A stretch of 64,000 nt of DNA from positions 90,181 through 154,180 of the forward strand of contig ONCQ01000004.1 in the NCBI GenBank assembly GCA_900316355.1, written 5' to 3'. Every line of letters starts with the position of its first letter. Position 1 is the first letter of the stretch. The notes beneath the pieces were generated by a model. It made no database searches and was not told the origin of the DNA. It saw only the letters and a list, made by a program, of their open reading frames with translations. This DNA is from an uncultured Prevotellaceae bacterium. Its GTDB lineage: Bacteria > Bacteroidota > Bacteroidia > Bacteroidales > Bacteroidaceae. A program made the position numbers and the translations under genes. Shown piece by piece: positions 33,032-59,149 of the stretch.

Positions 33032-33039
33032 AATAGAGA

Positions 33040-33144
33040 CCCACCCCCTGCCCTCCCTGTGAGGGAGGGAGCAATTTCTTTTGAAGGTTAATAATTATGT
33101 GGTTTATTGTTCATCTTTTTGAGAGGTGACCACTCCCTCCCTCG
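33040..33144. repeat. Paired GC-rich element in the prfA-pyrF spacer
   Basis: The 114-nt spacer carries a left copy (ACCCACCCCCTGCCCTCCC with its palindromic GAGGGAGGG, 33040-33072) and an inverted partial right copy (ACTCCCTCCCTCG, 33131-33144). Between them is AT-rich sequence. The architecture resembles the pairs upstream of purM and purC. Confidence 0.7.
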
Positions 33145-34376: not shown

Positions 34377-34451
34377 TAGGAACGATCGGGCTCGAACCGA
34401 TGACCTCTTCAATGTGACTGAAGCGCTCTGAACCAACTGAGCTACGCTCCT
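34377..34451 (-). tRNA. tRNA-Val (anticodon CAC)
   Basis: The minus strand folds as a full cloverleaf of 75 nt: acceptor AGGAGCG / CGTTCCT with one G-U pair, D stem GCTC/GAGC, anticodon stem CTTCA/TGAAG with loop GTCACAT (anticodon CAC, codon GUG). The variable loop has 5 nt and the T stem is ATCGG/CCGAT with loop TTCGAGC. The discriminator base is A; CCA is not encoded. Position 32 is G, slightly unusual. Confidence 0.92.
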
Positions 34452-34551: not shown

Positions 34552-35919
34552 TTATCCTGCATGGGTTGCATCGAGCGCTTCTTGGTGTTTCCACCAGTCA
34601 TCCTTGGTTTTGCATAGCGCCTGCGCCACACAGTTCATGGCTTTACAGAAGGGAACGTGGATGGCATCGTCTTTCCTGCGGAATTGGTACTGCCAGGGTG
34701 TCACGAGGAGAAGACGGCCATTAGCACAGGCGTCAATCATCTCTTCGGAGGGGTGGTAGCGGTCGGAGAAGCCGTTGTCGATGATGCGGATGACGGGGTA
34801 ACCAGCTGCGCTGGCTGCATCCATGATGTCTTGCTCGCCACGAGCGATGCGGGCTGAGACAAGGAGTGCACCTGCGGCGGCAGCCTCTAAGCAGCGCGCT
34901 TTCTGCTGAGCAAAGAGGGCGGCATCCTTACGGTGACAGACAACGGGCAGCAAGTGCCGCTTCAGCAGTTCGCGGTTGCCATAGCTGTCACAGCTGATGC
35001 GACAGCTTTCAATGAGGAAGCGCGCTTGCAGCTCTTGCCAGATGGCAGGCGTGAACTGATTGGCCCTGCATTCACGGCGCAGAAATCCACACATGGCAGA
35101 GGGGCTGACGGCGGTGTCGATGCCGCCGCGGCGGGGCATGAGATGGGCGCGGTTGGAGGTGCGCAGCAGGCGGCTGCGTGGGTTGTTGAGGATATAGGCG
35201 CGCTGGGTGGCCAGCTGTGCCTCATCAATGGGGACGACATCGCAGTAGCCAGCATCGAAGAGGGGTGGGAGAGGGGCGGAGGGGTGATGCTCAACGACTG
35301 AATCGTTGAGCGCCATCGCAGCCTTGGTGGTTGCAGCCTTGGTGGCTGCTGCTTTGTTGGTTGCTGCTTTGTTGGTTGCTGCCTTGGTGGGTGGGTCCGC
35401 GTTTTTTGCGATGGCGTCAGGCGATTTGGTCGCCTGCGCTTCCGCCTGCCCTTCCATCTGCCCTTCTACCTGCCCTTCCGCCTGCCCTCCTGTCGCTGGG
35501 GCCGTTATGCGGCCTGTCATTTCCCAATAGCGGCGGTTACAGCCCTGCTTGAAGCCGGCGATGACGCGGCCGATGTGGGTGCGGCGGCCTGTGGCGGAGA
35601 AGATGTCGCGGGTGGCATGGAGGAGGATGTGGAGATGCTCCGGCATGATCACGTAGGTGTCCACCTCCACCATCGGGTAGTGGCGCTTGATGCTCGTTAA
35701 CAGCTCCTGCTGCACCATCTGCCCGAAGGGCGTCAGCTCCACATGCGGCGCCGCGGCATCGCCGTCGGGCTTGCTGATGTCGCCGCATATCCGCCCTAAC
35801 GGCTGCCGAAGCTGCTGCTCGGTGCTGATGGTGATGTGGAAGTAGCCGCGGTAGCTGTATTCATGCGTGAAGCTGCGGCGCTTCATGCTGTGCGCTTTAG
35901 GCTTCTTGGGCGTTTCCAT
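34552..35919 (-). CDS. REP-type Y1 (HUH) transposase fused to a DprA/SLOG-like domain
   Basis: Protein of 455 aa in three parts. Residues about 13-135 match the Y1/IS200-like transposase fold used by REP-associated transposases: HUH metal motif MPEHLHILLH (His 95 and His 97), then RVIAGFKQGCNRRYW; a candidate catalytic Tyr lies in QRAYILNNPRSRL (about residue 242). Residues about 140-205 are a low-complexity linker of tandem repeats. Residues about 320-445 look like a Rossmann-type SLOG/DprA module: GALLVSARIARGEQDIM, DNGFSDRYHPS, ACANGRLLLVTPW. It is the last gene of the purM run (43-nt gap). I infer single-strand DNA processing, possibly on the GC-rich palindromes nearby. The C-terminal assignment is less certain than the N-terminal one. 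Confidence 0.75.
   Translation of the reverse strand: METPKKPKAHSMKRRSFTHEYSYRGYFHITISTEQQLRQPLGRICGDISKPDGDAAAPHVELTPFGQMVQQELLTSIKRHYPMVEVDTYVIMPEHLHILLHATRDIFSATGRRTHIGRVIAGFKQGCNRRYWEMTGRITAPATGGQAEGQVEGQMEGQAEAQATKSPDAIAKNADPPTKAATNKAATNKAAATKAATTKAAMALNDSVVEHHPSAPLPPLFDAGYCDVVPIDEAQLATQRAYILNNPRSRLLRTSNRAHLMPRRGGIDTAVSPSAMCGFLRRECRANQFTPAIWQELQARFLIESCRISCDSYGNRELLKRHLLPVVCHRKDAALFAQQKARCLEAAAAGALLVSARIARGEQDIMDAASAAGYPVIRIIDNGFSDRYHPSEEMIDACANGRLLLVTPWQYQFRRKDDAIHVPFCKAMNCVAQALCKTKDDWWKHQEALDATHAG
35318..35390 (-). repeat. 15-bp tandem repeat in the transposase linker
   Basis: Nearly five units of the type TTGGTTGCTGCTTTG (plus strand) encoding TKAAT/NKAAT/TKAAA units, an Ala/Lys/Thr-rich flexible linker. 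Confidence 0.85.
35431..35490 (-). repeat. 12-bp tandem repeat in the transposase linker
   Basis: Five units of 12 bp (CGCCTGCCCTTC type on the plus strand) encoding GQAE/GQVE/GQME/GQAE/AQAT units just before the 15-bp repeat. Confidence 0.85.
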
Positions 35920-35962: not shown

Positions 35963-37285
35963 TCAGTAGTTGAACTCGCCGAACTCGCTACGGATGGTGA
36001 GGCTGAGCGGGCCTTCTTCGATGTGGCCGACGACCTGCGCATCGATGTTGAAGCTCTTGGAGATAGCGATGACCTGGTCGGCATCCTCGGGGCTGACATA
36101 GACCTCCAGGCGATGGCCGCAGTTGAAGACCTTGTACATCTCGCTCCAGTCAGCTCCGCTCTCCTCGGCGATGATGCGGAAGAGGGGCGGCACGGGGAAC
36201 ATGTTGTCCTTGATGACGCGGCAGTTGTCGCCCACGAAGTGCAGGACTTTTGTTTGGGCGCCGCCCGTGCAATGTACCATGCCGTGGATGCGGGGGCGCA
36301 GCTGGTCGAGGAGGCAACGGACGACGGGAGCATAGGTACGGGTGGGGGAGAGGACAAGGCGGCCGACAGAAGACCCACCCCCGACCCCTCCCGTGAGGGA
36401 GGGGAGAGGCTGCGCATTATCGGAGGATGACGAGCCGGAGGACTCCCCTCCCTCACGGAAGGGGTATGGGAGTGGGTCTTGAAGCTTGTATTTACCACTA
36501 TACACCAGCTCCTCGGGAACGGCGTGGTCGTAGGTCTCGGGGTATTTCTCGGCGAGGTACTTGCTAAAGACGTCGTGGCGGGCGGAGGTGAGGCCGTTAC
36601 TGCCCATGCCACCGTTGTATTCCTTCTCGTACGTGGCCTGACCGAAGCTGGCGAGACCGACGATGACATCGCCCGGACGGATGTTGGCGTTGTTGATGAC
36701 ATCACTGCGCTTCATGCGACAGGTGACGGTGGAATCAACGATGATGGTGCGGACGAGGTCGCCCACGTCGGCTGTTTCGCCACCTGTTCCATAAATGCCG
36801 ACTCCCATCTCGCGCAGTTCAGCCATGAGCTCGTCGGTGCCGTTGATGATGGCAGAGATGACTTCGCCGGGGATGAGCATCTTGTTGCGGCCTATGGTCG
36901 AGGAGACGAGGATGTTATCCACAGCGCCCACACAGAGCAGGTCGTCGGTGTTCATGATGAGCGCGTCTTGTGCGATGCCTTTCCAGACAGAGAGGTCGCC
37001 TGTCTCGCGCCAGTAGGCATAGGCCAGGCTGCTCTTCGTGCCGGCGCCGTCGGCGTGCATGATGTTGCAGTATTCGGGGTCGCCTCCGAGGATGTCAGGG
37101 ATGATCTTGCAGAAGGCCTGAGGGAAGATACCCTTGTCGATGTTTTTGATGGCTGCGTGGACATCTTCCTTGGCGGCGGAGACGCCACGGGCCATGTAAC
37201 GGGCAGACCCTCCCCCCTGCCCCTCCCTTGTAGGGCGGGGAGTAGGATGTATTTGCCTGTTTGTTTTTATGTCGTTTTGTTGCAT
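35963..37285 (-). CDS. purM: Phosphoribosylformylglycinamidine cyclo-ligase (AIR synthetase) with repeat-derived insertions
   Basis: Fifth step of purine synthesis: ATP-dependent closure of FGAM to AIR. The 440-aa protein has the family motifs HADGAGTKSSLAY, GETADVGDLVRTI, GLTSARHDVF and HCTGGAQTKVLHF. It follows the AIR synthetase form found in Bacteroidetes but carries two additions. An N-terminal extension of about 28 residues ([15 protein letters not shown]) comes from the GC-rich element at 37203-37364. An internal insert of 37 codons (about residues 269-306; PYPFREGGE and SLTGGVGGGS) comes from the element at 36370-36480. The rest of the protein is intact, so I expect it to be functional. 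It starts 80 nt after lemA. Confidence 0.95.
   Translation of the reverse strand: MQQNDIKTNRQIHPTPRPTREGQGGGSARYMARGVSAAKEDVHAAIKNIDKGIFPQAFCKIIPDILGGDPEYCNIMHADGAGTKSSLAYAYWRETGDLSVWKGIAQDALIMNTDDLLCVGAVDNILVSSTIGRNKMLIPGEVISAIINGTDELMAELREMGVGIYGTGGETADVGDLVRTIIVDSTVTCRMKRSDVINNANIRPGDVIVGLASFGQATYEKEYNGGMGSNGLTSARHDVFSKYLAEKYPETYDHAVPEELVYSGKYKLQDPLPYPFREGGESSGSSSSDNAQPLPSLTGGVGGGSSVGRLVLSPTRTYAPVVRCLLDQLRPRIHGMVHCTGGAQTKVLHFVGDNCRVIKDNMFPVPPLFRIIAEESGADWSEMYKVFNCGHRLEVYVSPEDADQVIAISKSFNIDAQVVGHIEEGPLSLTIRSEFGEFNY
36370..36480. repeat. 111-bp inverted-repeat element inserted in frame in purM
   Basis: Begins AAGACCCAC and ends GTGGGTCTT. Each end carries a palindromic CCCTCCC..GGGAGGGG core, and the two ends are inverted copies of each other. 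The length is exactly 37 codons and has no stop in the purM frame. Confidence 0.85.
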
Positions 37286-37364
37286 ATAGGATATTTATTC
37301 TTATCTATCTTGTGTTGTAATTACTCCCCTCCCTACAAGGGAGGGGTAGGGGGGAGGGTCTGCT
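37203..37364. repeat. 162-bp element with 42-bp inverted ends at the lemA-purM junction
   Basis: Left end 37203-37244 and right end 37323-37364 are inverted copies of 42 bp with two mismatches, both starting GCAGACCCTCCCCCCT. The core is AT-rich and contains the purM ATG (37283-37285). The left end is translated as the PurM N-terminus; the right end abuts the lemA stop codon. Confidence 0.88.
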
Positions 37365-37365
37365 C

Positions 37366-37944
37366 TTAGAACTGCACCTCCGGTGCTTTCTCAGCTCCGG
37401 CTTCAGCAGCAAACGGTGTCTTCTTCTCGAAGCTGAAGATCATTGCCCAAATGTTGTTGGGGAACTTGCGGACGTTGACGTTGTAGGTCTGCACGGCTTC
37501 GTTGTACTGGCGGCGGGCTTCGGCGATGCGGTTCTCGGTGCCTTCGAGCTGTGCCTGCAGTTCGCTGAACTGTTCGTTGGCCTTCAGGTCGGGATAAGCC
37601 TCGGTGATGGCGAGGAGACGGCCGAGGGCTTGACTGACCTCACCCTGAGCCTCTTGGAAGGCAGCAATCTGTTCGGGGGTAGCATTGGCCGGGTCGATGG
37701 TAATCTGTGTGGCCTTGGTGCGGGCGGCGACAACAGCCTCCAAGGTCTCGCTCTCATGGGCGGCATAGCCCTTGACGGTGTTCACGAGGTTGGGAATGAG
37801 GTCGGCACGGCGCTGGTACTGCGTCTGCACATCAGCCCATTTCTGGTTCACCACTTCTTCCTGTTCTACGAGCTTGTTGTAGGTGCAGCTGGTGAAACAC
37901 ATGGCTGTCATGACAGCTACAAAAATCGATTTCAGAGTCTTCAT
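37366..37944 (-). CDS. lemA: LemA family protein
   Basis: Membrane-associated helical protein of 192 aa; LemA proteins have an N-terminal membrane segment and a long periplasmic helical bundle, biochemical role unsettled. The start is the ATG at 37942-37944 (MKTLKSIFVAVM), with a lipobox-like MCFTSC. Family motifs are present: VNQKWADVQTQYQRRADLIPN and the C-terminal ENRIAEARRQYNEAVQTYN. The frame is open further upstream, but that part overlaps the Gly-rich tail of the preceding gene. It begins 37 nt after the TPM-domain gene, a common lemA partner. Confidence 0.93.
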   Translation of the reverse strand: MKTLKSIFVAVMTAMCFTSCTYNKLVEQEEVVNQKWADVQTQYQRRADLIPNLVNTVKGYAAHESETLEAVVAARTKATQITIDPANATPEQIAAFQEAQGEVSQALGRLLAITEAYPDLKANEQFSELQAQLEGTENRIAEARRQYNEAVQTYNVNVRKFPNNIWAMIFSFEKKTPFAAEAGAEKAPEVQF

Positions 37945-37981
37945 TGTTGTTATTTTTTTATTGGTTATGTGGCTTGCTGTT

Positions 37982-38902
37982 CTAAAATCTGCCTCCTGCA
38001 CCGCCTCCTCCGAAGGAGCCGCCGCCAAAGGAACCGCCAAAGGAACCTCCAAAGGACCTGCCGCCCCCGCCGAAGAAGCTGCCGCCGAGGGCACCACCCG
38101 CCGCTGCAGCACCGGTGCCGCTGTGGAGGTCCTCATCCCAGTGCTGCTCCTTGGTGAAGTAGCAGTGAGAACAACGGTAGGTGTCGTGGTGTGTGCGGAT
38201 GCCGAGACGTTTATTCTTTGTCGTGTAGCTGCTGATTTTCTTCATCTTGTACTGATGGCAGCTGGGACAGTATGATTTCCTCCTCTGCTCCAACCAGATG
38301 GCGAAGAAGATGAGGCCTATGCCGAGTGCCATGAAGGCAACGAAGAACATGAGCGCGATGGTGTCATCCTCGTCGTCGAAATCAGAGGTGCCCACCAGCG
38401 ACGTGTCGCCATCGACATAGCGTGTGATGGCACGCACAGTGGCGAGCATCGCCTCATCCCAGTCACCCTCGCGCAAGGCAGGTAGCATCTGACGGTTCTC
38501 GATGCGTTTGCAGATGGCGTCCGGTAGTGTGCCTTCCAGTCCGCGTCCGGTTAATATATAGTACGCGCGATCTCCTGTGGAGAGCAGGATGATGAGACCT
38601 GTGTTCTGCTCCTTTGAGCCGATACCGTATTTGCGGCCGAGGGCCATGCAGAACTCGTAGGTGTCGCCTCCTTCGATGTGCTCCACGACGGCCAGAACGG
38701 TCTGCACCCCATGAGCCTTTTCCATCTCTCCAAGCCATAAATTCAGCGAATCCACCGCTTCCTGAGACAAGATTCCATCGGGGTTTGATACATACTGACT
38801 CTTGTCCTGAAGGTAGGGGATGGGCAGGCTTTCAGGGGTGTAGGTGGCTGCATGCAACGCAGCAACCAATATCATACATAGTATCGTTATACGTAGTCTC
38901 AT
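37982..38902 (-). CDS. TPM-domain membrane protein with Gly-rich tail
   Basis: Protein of 306 aa. The start at 38900-38902 overlaps the aroE stop as ATGA, so I prefer it to the in-frame ATG 27 nt upstream. It has a signal peptide (LCMILVAALHAA), a TPM domain (about residues 30-170; VSNPDGILSQEAVDSLN, GLIILLSTGDRAYYILTGRG) and one transmembrane segment (FFVAFMALGIGLIFFAIWL). A cytoplasmic segment follows with two CxxC pairs (YCPSCH, RCSHCY; probable zinc ribbon), then a Gly/Ser/Phe-rich tail. TPM proteins are often encoded next to lemA, as here. The exact role is unknown. Confidence 0.9.
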   Translation of the reverse strand: MRLRITILCMILVAALHAATYTPESLPIPYLQDKSQYVSNPDGILSQEAVDSLNLWLGEMEKAHGVQTVLAVVEHIEGGDTYEFCMALGRKYGIGSKEQNTGLIILLSTGDRAYYILTGRGLEGTLPDAICKRIENRQMLPALREGDWDEAMLATVRAITRYVDGDTSLVGTSDFDDEDDTIALMFFVAFMALGIGLIFFAIWLEQRRKSYCPSCHQYKMKKISSYTTKNKRLGIRTHHDTYRCSHCYFTKEQHWDEDLHSGTGAAAAGGALGGSFFGGGGRSFGGSFGGSFGGGSFGGGGAGGRF

Positions 38903-39720
38903 AAGTCTTGTTCGTTCCAGAAATTCCATGAAGCTAAGGCCTGGCGGTGTAGCATCTCAAGGCCATTCTTGACAGTGGCACCGAATCGGCGCCCCTGGCG
39001 CATGAACATTGTTATCTCTGGATTATAGACGAGGTCATAGAGGAGGTGTCGCGGGGAGAGGGCTGCGTAGGGGATGGTGGGAGCGGCATCGATGTGGGGG
39101 AACATGCCGAGAGGGGTGCAGTTGATGATGACGGTGTAGTCAGCGAGGAGGGCGGGGGTGATGTCGGAGTAGGTGAAGGGACCCTCGGGAGAACACTTGG
39201 GAACCGTAATAGAATGCTCGGGTACGGTAATGGGGCGATGGCGGGTGACATAGTGCCATTCTATGCCGAGGTCGTCGAGGCCGTGGCAGATGGCCTTGGA
39301 CGCACCACCGGTGCCGAGAACGAGGGCGCGCTTATGGTGGGACTGCAGGAGTGGGCGGATACTATCAGTGAAGCCGATGATGTCGGAGTTGTAGCCTTTG
39401 AGGTAAGGGCGTGAGGCGTCTGATGAGTGGCTTATCTTGATGACATTGACAGCCCCGATGGCACGTGCCTCGTCGGAGAGCTCGTCGAGATAAGGGATGA
39501 CGGCCTGCTTGTAGGGGATGGTGACGTTGAGGCCGCGCAGGTTGGGATGCTCGGCGATGAGCTTCGGAAAATCTTCGATGGATGGTAGTTCGAAGTTCCT
39601 ATATTCCGCATCAATCCCTTCGCGCGCGAACTTATCATTAAAGAACGCGCGCGAGAAGCTGTGGCCGAGGGGATAGCCCACGAGACCATATAACGCGCTA
39701 TGGAGATTACCTGTTGTCAT
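38899..39720 (-). CDS. aroE: Shikimate dehydrogenase
   Basis: NADPH-dependent reduction of 3-dehydroshikimate to shikimate (chorismate pathway). The 273-aa protein has the substrate-binding segment YGLVGYPLGHSFS and the catalytic Lys in LNVTIPYKQAV. It also has a conserved Asp in GYNSDIIGF and the nucleotide-binding LVLGTGGASKA. It lies 6 nt after the glycosyltransferase gene and overlaps the next gene by 4 nt. Confidence 0.96.
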   Translation of the reverse strand: MTTGNLHSALYGLVGYPLGHSFSRAFFNDKFAREGIDAEYRNFELPSIEDFPKLIAEHPNLRGLNVTIPYKQAVIPYLDELSDEARAIGAVNVIKISHSSDASRPYLKGYNSDIIGFTDSIRPLLQSHHKRALVLGTGGASKAICHGLDDLGIEWHYVTRHRPITVPEHSITVPKCSPEGPFTYSDITPALLADYTVIINCTPLGMFPHIDAAPTIPYAALSPRHLLYDLVYNPEITMFMRQGRRFGATVKNGLEMLHRQALASWNFWNEQDL

Positions 39721-39726
39721 ATAGTT

Positions 39727-40638
39727 CTATTGTCCTTGTAGGTGATAGTGCTGCCATACGGCACGTAGCTGTCTGTCGTTGCGGTTACCACTGTTATTGA
39801 TGAGGTGGAGGGCGCTGTCCTGGCAGACGTGGTTGTCGGCTTGCAAGTAATCGTAGTTACCTCGTTGGCAGACGGCTATCGGTGTGCCTGCGAGGCGCGC
39901 CATGGCATTGAACCACACATCGTCAGCTGTGGGACAGATGTCCTGGAAGACCTCTTTATGAAAGACCTCTTCAGGCATGCAGCCTGCGGGATAGAAGACA
40001 CCGCCGAAGCCCTCGAAGAAGAGGTCTTTGGATGCCTCTTGGGTCTCCTCCTGAAGATAGGGCCAGTCGAGGATGCCGGTGGGAATCCCCTCTGCATCGC
40101 GTGAGAGCCTCATAACCATATTTCCCACGATGGAATGGGTGTTTTTTGAGTGCTCGATAAGGATATTCTCCAAGAAGTCGTGGGGATAAAAGATGTCATC
40201 ATCAACAGTGATGATATGGGCATCAGGATACATCTTCAAGGCGGGCAGGAGCTTGGTGTAAGATTGGAGGTCACGTGTTCCAAGAACCTGCAATCCCCTC
40301 TCCATCTGTCTTTGCAGGGTGACGGGCAGCGGTCTGCGGTCCCTCTCATCTCTCCATAGGACGATGCCGTTGGGCTTCACCGTTCCCTGCATCAAACTCT
40401 CGATGGTCGTACATACTTCATAGAAACGTTTACCATGTGTTGTCAGAGATACGATGACAGGTGTCTCACCAGCAGTGGTTGCTGCAACGCCTGCTTCCTG
40501 ACCTTGGAGTGCTGCCTGCAACAGCCTTTCCCTGCGTTGTTCCTGCAGAAGCCTTGTGGCAGCGGCTTCTATCAGGCCCGGCGTGATATGCGCTTGAAGG
40601 TAGGCCGTGAGCTTCTGTTTGATGAGATGTTTGAGCAT
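39727..40638 (-). CDS. Putative GT-A type glycosyltransferase
   Basis: Protein of 303 aa with the layout of a GT-A fold: a beta-strand and loop start VIVSLTTHGKRF (about residue 60), then a metal-binding acidic motif IITVDDDIFYP (about 140) and a later WFNAMARL segment with a preceding TADDV. No membrane segment or signal peptide. The N-terminal 55 residues are helical and Gln-rich. Donor and acceptor are unknown; cell-surface polysaccharide assembly is a guess. It starts 15 nt after the menG stop and is followed by aroE. Confidence 0.75.
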   Translation of the reverse strand: MLKHLIKQKLTAYLQAHITPGLIEAAATRLLQEQRRERLLQAALQGQEAGVAATTAGETPVIVSLTTHGKRFYEVCTTIESLMQGTVKPNGIVLWRDERDRRPLPVTLQRQMERGLQVLGTRDLQSYTKLLPALKMYPDAHIITVDDDIFYPHDFLENILIEHSKNTHSIVGNMVMRLSRDAEGIPTGILDWPYLQEETQEASKDLFFEGFGGVFYPAGCMPEEVFHKEVFQDICPTADDVWFNAMARLAGTPIAVCQRGNYDYLQADNHVCQDSALHLINNSGNRNDRQLRAVWQHYHLQGQ

Positions 40639-40653
40639 GGAGACTGATGTTTG

Positions 40654-41394
40654 CTATTTTGTGGCAAGATACATGGTTGACAGTCCGAAGGTGAAGCGCT
40701 TGAAGGTCACCTTGCTGAAGCCGCAATGGTGGAGCATCGGCACGAGGCGTTCGGCCTGCGGGAAGGCCGCCATGGAGCGGGGCAGGTAGGTGTAGGCGCT
40801 GTCGTCGTGGCTGATGAGGTGGCCGATGGAGGCCATGATGACATGGGAGTAAATCCAGAAGAGCTGCTTCATCGGGAAACGGGGTGGGGTGGTTAGCTCC
40901 ACGAGCATCAGGTGCCCGCCGGGTTTCAGCACGCGACACATCTCGCATAGTCCTGCTTCGAGATCCTCGAAATTGCGGGCGCCATAGGCGACGGTGACCG
41001 CATCGAAGGTGCCGGTCTCGAAGGAGAGTGCCGTGCAGTCATCCTTCATGAAGTAGATGACGTTGTCGAGCCCGACTTGTTTCACTTTCTCACGAGCCAC
41101 CTCCATCATCCCCTCACTGATATCCACGCCGATGATGCGGTCGGGGTCGAGGCGCTTGGCGGCGAGGATGGCGAAGTCCCCCGTGCCCGTGGCGACATCG
41201 AGGATAACCTGCGGCGCAAAGGGCTTCAGCGAGTCGATGGCCTTGCGGCGCCAGCGGCGGTCGATGCCGAGGGAGAGGGTGTGGTTGAGGCGGTCGTAGG
41301 TGGGGGCGATGCGGTTGAACATCGTCTCGACTTGTCCGCGCTTCGGGCCAGACGCTGTGGAATAGGGGGTGATGGGTTCTGGAGCGTGGGGCAT
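40654..41394 (-). CDS. menG: Demethylmenaquinone methyltransferase
   Basis: SAM-dependent C-methylation that completes menaquinone (also called ubiE family). The 246-aa protein has family motifs [17 protein letters not shown] near the N-terminus, SAM-binding [30 protein letters not shown] and [15 protein letters not shown]. Bacteroidales use menaquinone, so this rather than ubiquinone synthesis is its role. It lies 83 nt downstream of purC. Confidence 0.95.
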
Positions 41395-41477
41395 AGCTGC
41401 TCTTGGAGGGCTCGGCGACGGAATCGCCGAGAGCTATCGGGTTACGATTAATGGGCGGTAGGCCGTGAGATGCGGGG

Positions 41478-42497
41478 TTATGATTGGTGGGTGGAGAGCC
41501 AGGTGGCAACGTTCTTTTCGATGCGGGCGGCGACATTATCGGTGGTGGCTTCTTTCACGAACTTCTCGCCCACGATATGCTCATAGAGCTCGATATAGCG
41601 GTCGCTGATACTTTGGACGAAAGCATCGGTGAGTTCGGGCATTTTGTCGCCTGGACGGTTCATGAAGTCGTGGTCGATAAGCCATTGGCGCACGAACTCC
41701 TTGGAGAGTTGGCGTTGCGGTTCGCCCTTCTCAAACTTCTCCTCGTAGCCCTCGGCATAGAAGTAGCGACTGCTATCGGGCGTGTGGATCTCGTCGATGA
41801 GGATGACCTTGCCGTCGCGCTTACCGAACTCATACTTTGTATCAACGAGGATGAGGCCCTTTTTGGCAGCAATCTCAGTGCCACGCTGAAAGAGTGCACG
41901 GGTGTAGCGCTCCATCACCTCATAATCCTCAGCGCTGACGATGCCCTGTCGGATGATTTCCTCCTTGGAGATGTTCTCATCGTGGCCCTCGTCGGCTTTG
42001 GTCGTCGGTGTGATGATGGGTTCGGGAAAACGCTCGTTTTCGCGCATTCCATCGGGAAGTTTTACGCCGCATAGCTCGCGGCAGCCGTTCTTATATTCAC
42101 GCCATGCGGAACCAGTAAGGTATCCGCGGATAATCATCTCCACGCGGAAGCCTTCTGCCTTCAGACCTACAGTGACCATGGGGTCGGGAGTGGCGAGTTT
42201 CCAATTGGGTACGATGTCAGCGGTGGCGTCCAAGAAGGAGGCGGCAATCTGGTTCAGCACTTGTCCCTTGAAGGGGATGCCCTTGGGCAGCACCACGTCG
42301 AAGGCCGAGATGCGGTCGGTGGCGACCATCACCATGATGTCGTCGTTGATGTTGTACACATCGCGGACCTTGCCGTGATAGACACTGCGCTGGCCTGGGA
42401 AGGTAAAAGCAGTGTGGGTTAGAGCGGACCCTCCTCCCTGCCCCTCCCTTACAGGGCGGGGAGTAGAATGTACTTGACTAGTTGTGTTCTTTTCCAT
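41478..42497 (-). CDS. purC: SAICAR synthetase with repeat-derived N-terminus
   Basis: Condenses CAIR with aspartate in purine synthesis. The 339-aa protein has core motifs [40 protein letters not shown] and [13 protein letters not shown]. The first 25 residues are not native: [17 protein letters not shown] is encoded by the GC-rich element at 42426-42574, and the native protein would begin near [11 protein letters not shown]. The same peptide pattern opens PurM, an unrelated fold, showing a shared insertion. It starts 17 nt after the phoH stop. Confidence 0.96.
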
Positions 42498-42574
42498 GTA
42501 GAATATGATATTTATTAGATGTAATCTTGGCGGTCTTTACTCCCCGCCCTGTAAGGGAGGGGTAGGGGGAGGGC
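42426..42574. repeat. About 150-bp element with inverted ends at the phoH-purC junction
   Basis: Left end (GGACCCTCCTCCCTGCCCC...) and inverted right end (...GGGGTAGGGGGAGGGCC) share the core CCCTCCCTTACAGGGCGGGG exactly. The AT-rich middle contains the phoH stop and the purC start. It is closely related to the copy at 37203-37364, including AGRATGTAYTTG next to the left end. Confidence 0.88.
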
Positions 42575-43507
42575 CTTCTCCTTTCTTTCATACGCTTCAA
42601 CAATCTTTGTCACCAGCTTGTGGCGCACGATATCCTTCTCATTCAGGTGGATGACGGCGATTTCGTCGATGTCCTCGAGAATCTTCAGGGCCTCTATGAG
42701 TCCGCTCTTCTGCGAGTGGGGCAGGTCAATCTGTGTCATGTCACCCGTGATGACCATTTTAGTATTCATGCCCATGCGCGTGAGGAACATCTTTATTTGT
42801 GCCGGTGTGGTGTTCTGCGCCTCGTCCAGGATGACTACGGCATCATTCAGCGTGCGACCACGCATGAAGGCCAGTGGCGCTATCTGGATGATGTTCTGCT
42901 CCATCATTTCGTTGAGCTTCTGGCGCGGTATCATATCCTCAAGGGCATCGTAGAGCGGTTGGAGATAAGGGTCTATCTTCTCTTTCATGTCGCCCGGCAG
43001 GAATCCTAACTTCTCACCAGCTTCCACGGCGGGGCGGCTGAGGATGATGCGGCGCACCTCCTTATTCTTCATGGCGCGCACGGCGAGTGCGATGCTGGTG
43101 TAGGTCTTTCCCGAGCCGGCCGGGCCGATGGCGAAGACCATGTCATGTTTGTCGAAGGCCTCTACGAGGCGCTGTTGGTTCTCGCTGCGTGCGGTGATGG
43201 GTTTGCCGGTGACGCTGAAAACGATGGCGCCGGCAATGCCATCGCGCTTGGTGCGCTCGCCCCTCACAATGTGTATGATGTCCTCCTCGCTGAGGCTGTT
43301 GTATTTGGCGCAGTGGCGCTGCAGCTTCTCGATGTTCTCTTCAAAGGTGCACAGTTCCTCCTCATCGCCCATGACCTTCACGACATTGCCGCGTGCCACG
43401 ATGCGCATTTTCGGGTGTAACGCCTTAATCATCTGCATATTGGTGTTGTTTACACCATAGAAGATGATGGGGTCTGCTTCTTCCAGGATGAAGTGTTTTT
43501 CTGTCAT
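42515..43507 (-). CDS. phoH: PhoH family ATPase with repeat-derived C-terminus
   Basis: Cytoplasmic NTPase of the PhoH family, associated with RNA handling and stress. The 330-aa protein has Walker [13 protein letters not shown], Walker [14 protein letters not shown] and [12 protein letters not shown]. An N-terminal RNA-binding-like region spans about residues 15-80. The last 20 residues ([18 protein letters not shown]) come from the right end of the element at 42426-42574, which also supplies the stop codon. It is the first gene of a long co-directional run to the transposase gene. Confidence 0.94.
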
Positions 43508-59015: not shown

Positions 59016-59149
59016 GCATACCCCCTTACTCAAAGGGGGAGAAGACGGAAAAAGAAAATAAAGAAAGATTAGCTCTATGAAATATATCAGCAACTTTTTA
59101 GAAAGAGTATTTATTCCCTCCCTCACAAGGAGGGTGAGTGGCGGGTATG
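59016..59149. repeat. Paired GC-rich element at the receptor-lipoprotein junction
   Basis: Left end (GCATACCCCCTTACTCAAAG, 59016-59042) and inverted right end (59116-59149, ending GGCGGGTATG) flank an AT-rich core that includes the ATG of the next gene. It is a more diverged copy of the purM/purC-type arrangement. Confidence 0.65.

Follow-up and report, generated by a model that had tools for sequence, protein, structure and literature searches.

Why should two unrelated purine enzymes begin with nearly the same peptide? The question is raised by PurM and PurC in a 64,000-nucleotide stretch of DNA from an uncultured Prevotellaceae bacterium (assembly GCA_900316355.1, contig ONCQ01000004.1, positions 90,181–154,180), hereafter the window. 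A reading of the sequence alone had proposed that both peptides are encoded by one end of a palindromic element, which sits on the intergenic junction and supplies the start codon. Both peptides are present in the purM and purC open reading frames (ORFs) as that reading gave them, and both elements were located, with their inverted ends, on the gene junctions (Table 1). The answer that we judge probable from the sequences compared below is that a mobile palindrome was inserted at operon junctions and within genes, that the start of the downstream gene was captured and that the native start then decayed.

Two palindromic elements at purM and purC

An inverted-repeat scan assigned to element 1, which precedes purM, arms of 42 nt that are 95% complementary and 77 nt apart. 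Element 2, which precedes purC, has an inverted repeat of 30 nt (42436–42465 and 42538–42567) that is 97% complementary with a separation of 72 nt. The long shared stretches proposed earlier are borne out by 85% identity between elements 1 and 2 over their left 65 nt. Folded as minus-strand (coding-strand) mRNA, elements 1 and 2 gave energies of −98 kcal/mol (z −10.2) and −89.4 kcal/mol (z −9.6), respectively, and none of 200 shuffles was as stable in either case. Both mRNAs are predicted to form a long stem; the start codon falls within the A-rich stretch that separates the arms. Furthermore, element 2 provides the C-terminus and stop codon of the upstream gene phoH, a feature absent from the sequence-only reading.

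Among 80 related-genome loci, PurC has a plain start shortly before ALT in 74, mostly M(K/N)-ALT; these include a few other second residues, two with V for M, and MNMTST-LT in locus L056. The other six (L049, L051, L055, L057, L061 and L116) bear element peptides of their own, joined, as in the window, at the first conserved PurC residues with loss of Met-Lys. The phoH stop codon lies at or within the left arm in these six loci (L116 was read by eye) and in the core in the window. By eye, neither the native phoH tail, nor the intergenic stretch, nor the Met-Lys of purC is discernible in the element-bearing loci. Five of these loci differ in the distance from the left arm to the ATG (53–62 nt) and agree in having 66 nt between the ATG and native sequence; the corresponding distances in L116 are 65 and 69 nt. 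On the native side of PurC in the window, GTG is absent before codon 23, ATG before codon 31 and TTG before codon 65, so that translation almost surely begins in the element. In the fused protein, the Pfam SAICAR synthetase match begins only at residue 39.

On a tree of PurC, the element label takes five changes, at least four of which are forced by well-supported branches. At locus L050, the phoH–purC junction holds palindromes of other types (CCCCTCCCCGAGGAGAGAGGGAGG, CCCCCTCGGGGGATTAGAGGGGG) and purC retains ATGAAAGCA, so this junction may be an insertion hotspot.

PurM starts plainly in 52 of the 54 orthologues found, for example MDNKQRYMA-RGVS or MSNQRYMM-RGVS, and these lack the extra residues. 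In the window protein, MDNKQ is replaced and RYMARGVS is retained. The two remaining orthologues have different inserts: L116 carries a copy of a related subfamily (subfamily B) at the same place as the window element, and L047 has a native-like MDN followed by a different repeat peptide. A second, in-frame palindromic insert within window purM, which is missing from L043, had also escaped the earlier reading.

A repeat family fused to many proteins

The element is a member of a repeat family of approximately 165 bp. A search of its own genome (3.16 Mb, 69 contigs) with element 1 returned at least 114 pieces, which we grouped into approximately 40 places; 40 of 96 candidates were scored, and the counts in the family catalogue are lower bounds. 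The arm pattern, allowing two mismatches, gave 62 + 66 matches versus 0 for a reversed control, a count in which one palindromic arm may score on both strands. Of 301 genomes in the same taxonomic family, 55 have the pattern with at most one mismatch, the genome itself included. In a phylum sample of 296 genomes the pattern was found in three: the genome itself and two others with a single match each. Within the samples searched, the pattern hardly occurs outside one Bacteroidota family, and its patchy distribution within that family is as mobile DNA would predict. An Rfam scan returned only microRNA-type matches far under the gathering score, plus one tRNA, and searches of one open literature collection yielded no description of this repeat.

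From end to end, the element consists of two inverted ends of approximately 40–60 nt, each of which is a small hairpin. The two ends differ inside the hairpin, the right end (RE) having AGTCAAATACATTCT ahead of ACTCCCC. The gene-facing end translates in frame as a peptide that is optionally opened by SQIHS, and the consensus left end (LE), read outward, has TGA in the fused frame. Upstream-facing ends are of LE type in 15 of 16 fused loci; the end at L015 matches neither type. Arms of subfamily B (TAPSLIGRAGGES) are 3 nt shorter by our reading of their length, and the reading frame is thereby kept. An arm length of 38 nt was found in 30/30 coding arms versus 19/27 other arms, as selection for frame predicts, in a comparison that is partly circular because arms were classed by open frame.

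The fetched stretches of the genome numbered 34, giving 27 arm pairs under a loose rule and 18 under a strict one. In these loci, the N-terminus of 18 proteins was assigned to an arm read in the TPLPTREG frame or in the frame that corresponds to it in subfamily B: GcvPA, GcvPB, acyl-ACP thioesterase, IlvN, Ddl, ProC, RecQ, a glycosyltransferase, PaaK, an IorB-like protein, RimO, a small protein at L031, a TrpS-like protein, a chromate transporter, a SpoU-like protein, EtfA, PurM and PurC. The names IorB, TrpS, RimO and glycosyltransferase join a broad domain match with what we take these proteins to be; the small L031 protein had no family match, no downstream fusion was assigned to the arms at L021, L023, L030 and L035, and the protein at L041 is putatively CarA-like. 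The start ATG lies 8–17 codons ahead of the arm-opening ACT in all 17 genes scanned. Start capture had been proposed to have happened twice; it is near certain for PurC and likely for PurM, and the number is far too low.

The arm also follows stretches that resemble signal peptides by eye, in GH3, mutarotase-like and OstA-like proteins, the last of which starts with TTG and not ATG. In four proteins (OEP, OAD-beta, a TPR protein and DUF4296), a hydrophobic leader includes the arm read in the next frame, LLPSLQGRGRGVGL (L024, L026, L028 and L033); the leader stretch at L026 looks duplicated (LLHWRGRGVGLLLLLLFLSSC). Two further genomes were sampled by taking 20 stretches each from 65 (G185) and 55 (G246) arm-pattern matches. 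G185, from another genus, has N-terminal fusions too, including an RNase H-like protein, and the genome of L116 has subfamily-B fusions at Ddl, PaaK and RimO besides PurC and PurM. The 35 co-directional pairs of three genomes comprise 30 in the TPLPTREG frame, four in the next frame and one in the third, a count that includes internal copies and, among the 30, one arm directly followed by a stop without fusion (L153).

In-frame copies inside proteins are present in the same genome in Mfd-like, UvrA-like, M16 peptidase, APH-RapZ, FeoA-FeoB and CbiG-methylase proteins, and in a protein that we take to be PurL. The element lies between FeoA and FeoB at L040, between CbiG and tetrapyrrole methylase at L022, and between the APH and RapZ_C domains at L039. 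Internal copies were likewise found in two other genera, in GltB-like and PFL-like proteins of G246 and in an MFS protein of G185.

The fate of native starts was followed with a joined query of 12 native-side fragments against four related genomes, from which 30 loci were read. A plain native start was recovered for ten further fused genes: GcvPA (MN-FKYF), GcvPB (MNRTLYG), IlvN (MEEQK-LYTIL), Ddl (MDKKK-IIAIV), RecQ (MTSF-LSIL), GT2 (MKT-AIVIL), PaaK (MIDNNSP-YFN), the IorB-like protein (M-KVDII), RimO (MKQR-IDIL) and EtfA (MNN-VFVYC). In the genome under study, none of the ten retains the native Met, and replacement or alteration extends over between one and seven native codons; the Met position is occupied by Tyr (TAT) in the IorB-like protein and by Val (GTG) in GcvPB. 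Neither ATG, GTG nor TTG occurs in the first 14 native-side codons of PurC, IlvN, acyl-ACP thioesterase, PaaK and EtfA. Some orthologues are not plain: L188 RecQ has no in-frame ATG start, L194 RecQ has a different palindrome peptide, and two of three OstA-like orthologues themselves carry repeat peptides. ProC had no match at the 1e-8 cut in the four related genomes.

Cases that look intermediate were also found. Two copies lie ahead of SdhA/SdhB-like genes, presumably sdhA and sdhB, with the native ATG kept behind the element. These copies carry ATG AGT CAG ATA CAT TCT ACT CCC, and the element is thus able to bring its own start codon. The CvfB-like protein of G185 (L138) is fused and still contains an apparent native Met, which we assume to be the native start. 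This start-loss series, from fused through intermediate-like to unfused, is the pattern expected if an inserted element had its start captured and the older start then decayed.

The two copies at the sdh-like genes (L025) are canonical, closely resemble each other and are approximately 2.1 kb apart. Two further repeats were observed beside these cases. A single hairpin of a related repeat type (33037–33082 of the window) lies a few bases 5′ of the native start of a gene that we take to be pyrF, with its Met kept, and looks like an unfused stage. A related half palindrome at 59103–59146 is 75% complementary to 33039–33082.

Table 1. Positions of the elements and neighbouring genes in the window.
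Feature	Position	Strand	Description	Basis
Element 1, whole	~37203-37363			
Element 1, gene-facing arm (RE)	37203..37244	-	translated at PurM N-terminus	inverted repeat I1, ORF, end typing
Element 1, core	37245..37321	-	A/T-rich, with PurM start ATG 37285-37283	sequence, ORF, fold
Element 1, upstream-facing arm (LE)	37322..37363	-	directly 3′ of lemA stop codon	inverted repeat, end typing
lemA	37366..37944	-	gene upstream of element 1, stops short of arm	ORF, family match
purM	35963..37285	-	element-derived N-terminus	ORF, family match, orthologues
Second palindromic insert	36371..36470	-	related type, in frame within purM (LPYPFREGGESSGSSSSDNAQPLPSLTGGVGGGSS)	inverted repeat I5, orthologues
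Element 2, whole	~42424-42574			
Element 2, gene-facing arm (RE)	42424..42465	-	translated at PurC N-terminus	inverted repeat, end typing
Element 2, core	42466..42537	-	with phoH stop 42517-42515 and purC start ATG 42497-42495	ORFs, fold
Element 2, upstream-facing arm (LE)	42538..42574	-	translated as phoH C-terminal stretch	sequence, ORF
purC	41478..42497	-	element-derived N-terminus in place of native Met-Lys	ORF, family match, orthologues, start scan
phoH	42515..43507	-	element-derived C-terminus and stop codon	ORF, family match
RAYT-like gene	34552-35919	-	455 aa, MPEHLHILLHA stretch; between purM and tRNA gene	weak NF047646 match
tRNA gene	34377-34451			Rfam scan

Proposed start capture and its alternatives

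It is proposed that a non-autonomous mobile palindrome of approximately 165 bp lands within genes and at the junctions of operon genes. In the latter case, the upstream gene would often terminate within the left arm, and the downstream gene would be read from the ATG of the A-rich core and on through the right arm. Use of the element start would make the native one, which lies behind a strong GC hairpin, dispensable; it would then decay and leave the gene dependent on the element. One study describes Bacteroidota as having no Shine–Dalgarno sites and as tuning initiation by structure near the start, as shown in Flavobacterium johnsoniae (PMC6847099). A GC stem directly before the native start would hinder initiation and an A-rich loop would suit it, which may be the reason that the element start wins and the native one decays. 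We infer from these comparisons that the element start is used in the cell, that insertion preceded decay and that the element is mobile. A bolder form of this proposal, somewhat short of an even chance in our view, is that the palindrome acts as a portable translation-start cassette, bringing a start codon and an in-frame leader and repeatedly replacing the stop–start junctions of operons. If so, housekeeping genes would be made dependent on it by a ratchet that turns selfish DNA essential, and one frame would serve cytosolic proteins and another (LLPSLQGRGRGVGL) signal or membrane segments.

Several observations weigh against capture of starts by a mobile palindrome. Possible starts persist no more than four native-side codons past the arm in four of 17 fused genes (GTG at codon 1 in GcvPB, TTG at codon 1 in RecQ, GTG at codon 3 in Ddl and ATG at codon 4 in PurM). 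Because this in-frame PurM ATG (MARGVS) follows the arm by four codons, a PurM start supplied by the element is likely and not forced. End typing of 23 coding arms gave 12 RE, seven LE-like and four undecided. No near-identical empty site was found, and the orthologous junctions are too divergent to reveal a target-site duplication. The cores of L051 and of the L049/L055/L057/L061 group look alike, as could result from one common origin followed by losses, or from local recombination, and we put the number of origins at purC at three to five. Co-directional placement (35/39 pairs in three genomes) was rejected as an argument since it is near background (602/752, and 39/42 in the window) and internal copies are co-directional trivially. 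Only the absence of divergent placement, 0/39 element pairs versus 93/752 in the background, is suggestive.

The RAYT-like gene (REP-associated tyrosine transposase-like) between purM and the tRNA gene, approximately 1.3 kb from element 1, raises the alternative that the element is an inverted pair of repetitive extragenic palindromic (REP) hairpins, that is, a bacterial interspersed mosaic element (BIME), moved by an RAYT (TnpA-REP) such as this one, with the effect on starts a by-product. The arms are individually hairpins arranged as inverted pairs, the window gene has a weak match to NF047646 (E 1.3e-5, 25.1 bits versus a cutoff of 80), its family has matches in 23 of 41 genomes of the genus, this one included, with 11 match pieces at several places in this genome, and at L129 a related palindrome lies approximately 0.85 kb from its RAYT gene. 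We nevertheless consider it unlikely, if the least so of the alternatives. The window gene has no Pfam Y1_Tnp match; the loop GTAG is not conserved (TTGTAG in element 1, TTACAG in element 2); and L045 has an RAYT gene at the same place after purM yet no element at purM or purC. By script, none of the six other RAYT loci of the genome (L127–L132, L127 ending at a contig edge) has an arm of type A or B, which weighs against our own reading as well. Across the genus, RAYT counts and arm counts were too sparse for a usable comparison.

Selection might instead maintain the stem, with stop and start between its arms, as a functional junction module for translational coupling or mRNA stability. This would suit the repeated occupation of the phoH–purC junction on the tree and the many cases with a stop in or near the left arm and a start in the loop. 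Arms of the same element are also slightly more alike than arms taken from different elements, 118, 208 and 175 of 5000 permutations being as high in three genomes. Copies inside proteins, where there is no junction, are many, however; unfused copies exist, and most of the 80 relatives have no element at purC, so we regard such a module as improbable. Far less credible is a translational phase switch, in which recombination between arms flips the core so that the stop-bearing end faces the gene and turns it off. Near-perfect inverted repeats of 30–42 nt surround the start codon, the TGA of the consensus left end is in the fused frame, and left-like coding arms make up seven of 23. Against these stand the near-uniform left-end type of upstream-facing ends, the single orientation at the element-bearing PurC loci read by eye in assemblies, and the cost that a purC off state would have. 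Equally remote is an annotation effect, whereby translation begins past the repeat and the frame runs open through the arm by chance. REPs at the 5′ ends of ORFs are read in this manner in other species in passages of a REP survey (PMC3733652), and PurM, Ddl, GcvPB and RecQ keep possible starts shortly past the arm; the five proteins that lack any early native-side start codon, and the loss of the native Met wherever orthologues were compared, speak for translation from the element.

Relation to known systems

If the fusions are translated as proposed, approximately 18 proteins in one genome, mostly housekeeping enzymes, owe their present N-termini to a single repeat family. What look like intermediate stages would then record non-coding mobile DNA becoming an indispensable part of genes. 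Automatic annotation of start sites in such genomes may wrongly cut or extend proteins, and translation of N-terminal palindromic repeats becomes directly testable in isolates that carry the element.

Bacteroidales invertons, as we understand them, similarly have a short core at gene starts with inverted repeats on either side. They differ in that no flipped state was seen here (assemblies, one orientation at purC) and the core carries the start codon; furthermore, dozens of places have one arm sequence in common, and some copies lie in frame within proteins. Miniature inverted-repeat transposable elements resemble the family in their non-autonomous size, terminal inverted repeats and lack of an encoded transposase; for the present family neither a target duplication nor a parent element has come to light, no search having been aimed at the latter. 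REPs and BIMEs share with it small hairpins, often in inverted pairs and near stop codons, and the company of RAYT-like genes; the constant GTAG/CGTC tag at the hairpin foot is absent here, judging by eye from the arm listings. Subclasses of RAYT are treated in PMC6006769. According to passages of the REP survey, some REPs lie at ORF N-termini, many of them possibly untranslated, and R. conorii proteins that carry RPE-1 at the N-terminus are noted as expressed (PMC3733652); the survey's doubt over translation contrasts with the loss of native starts found here.

The Rickettsia palindromic elements (RPEs), to which the sequence-only reading had compared the window elements, are described in one source as palindromes of approximately 150 bp with many copies in frame in unrelated proteins (PMC10969869). 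The comparison holds at the level of behaviour alone: both are multi-copy palindromic repeats (approximately 165 bp here versus 100–150 bp) inserted in frame in unrelated proteins, here Mfd-, UvrA-, M16 peptidase-, GltB- and PFL-like. The present family differs in its GC-rich ends, its phylum and its many copies at gene starts, bearing a start codon that replaced the native one. Relative to known protein-coding palindromes, the new feature would be the capture of starts and stops at operon junctions.

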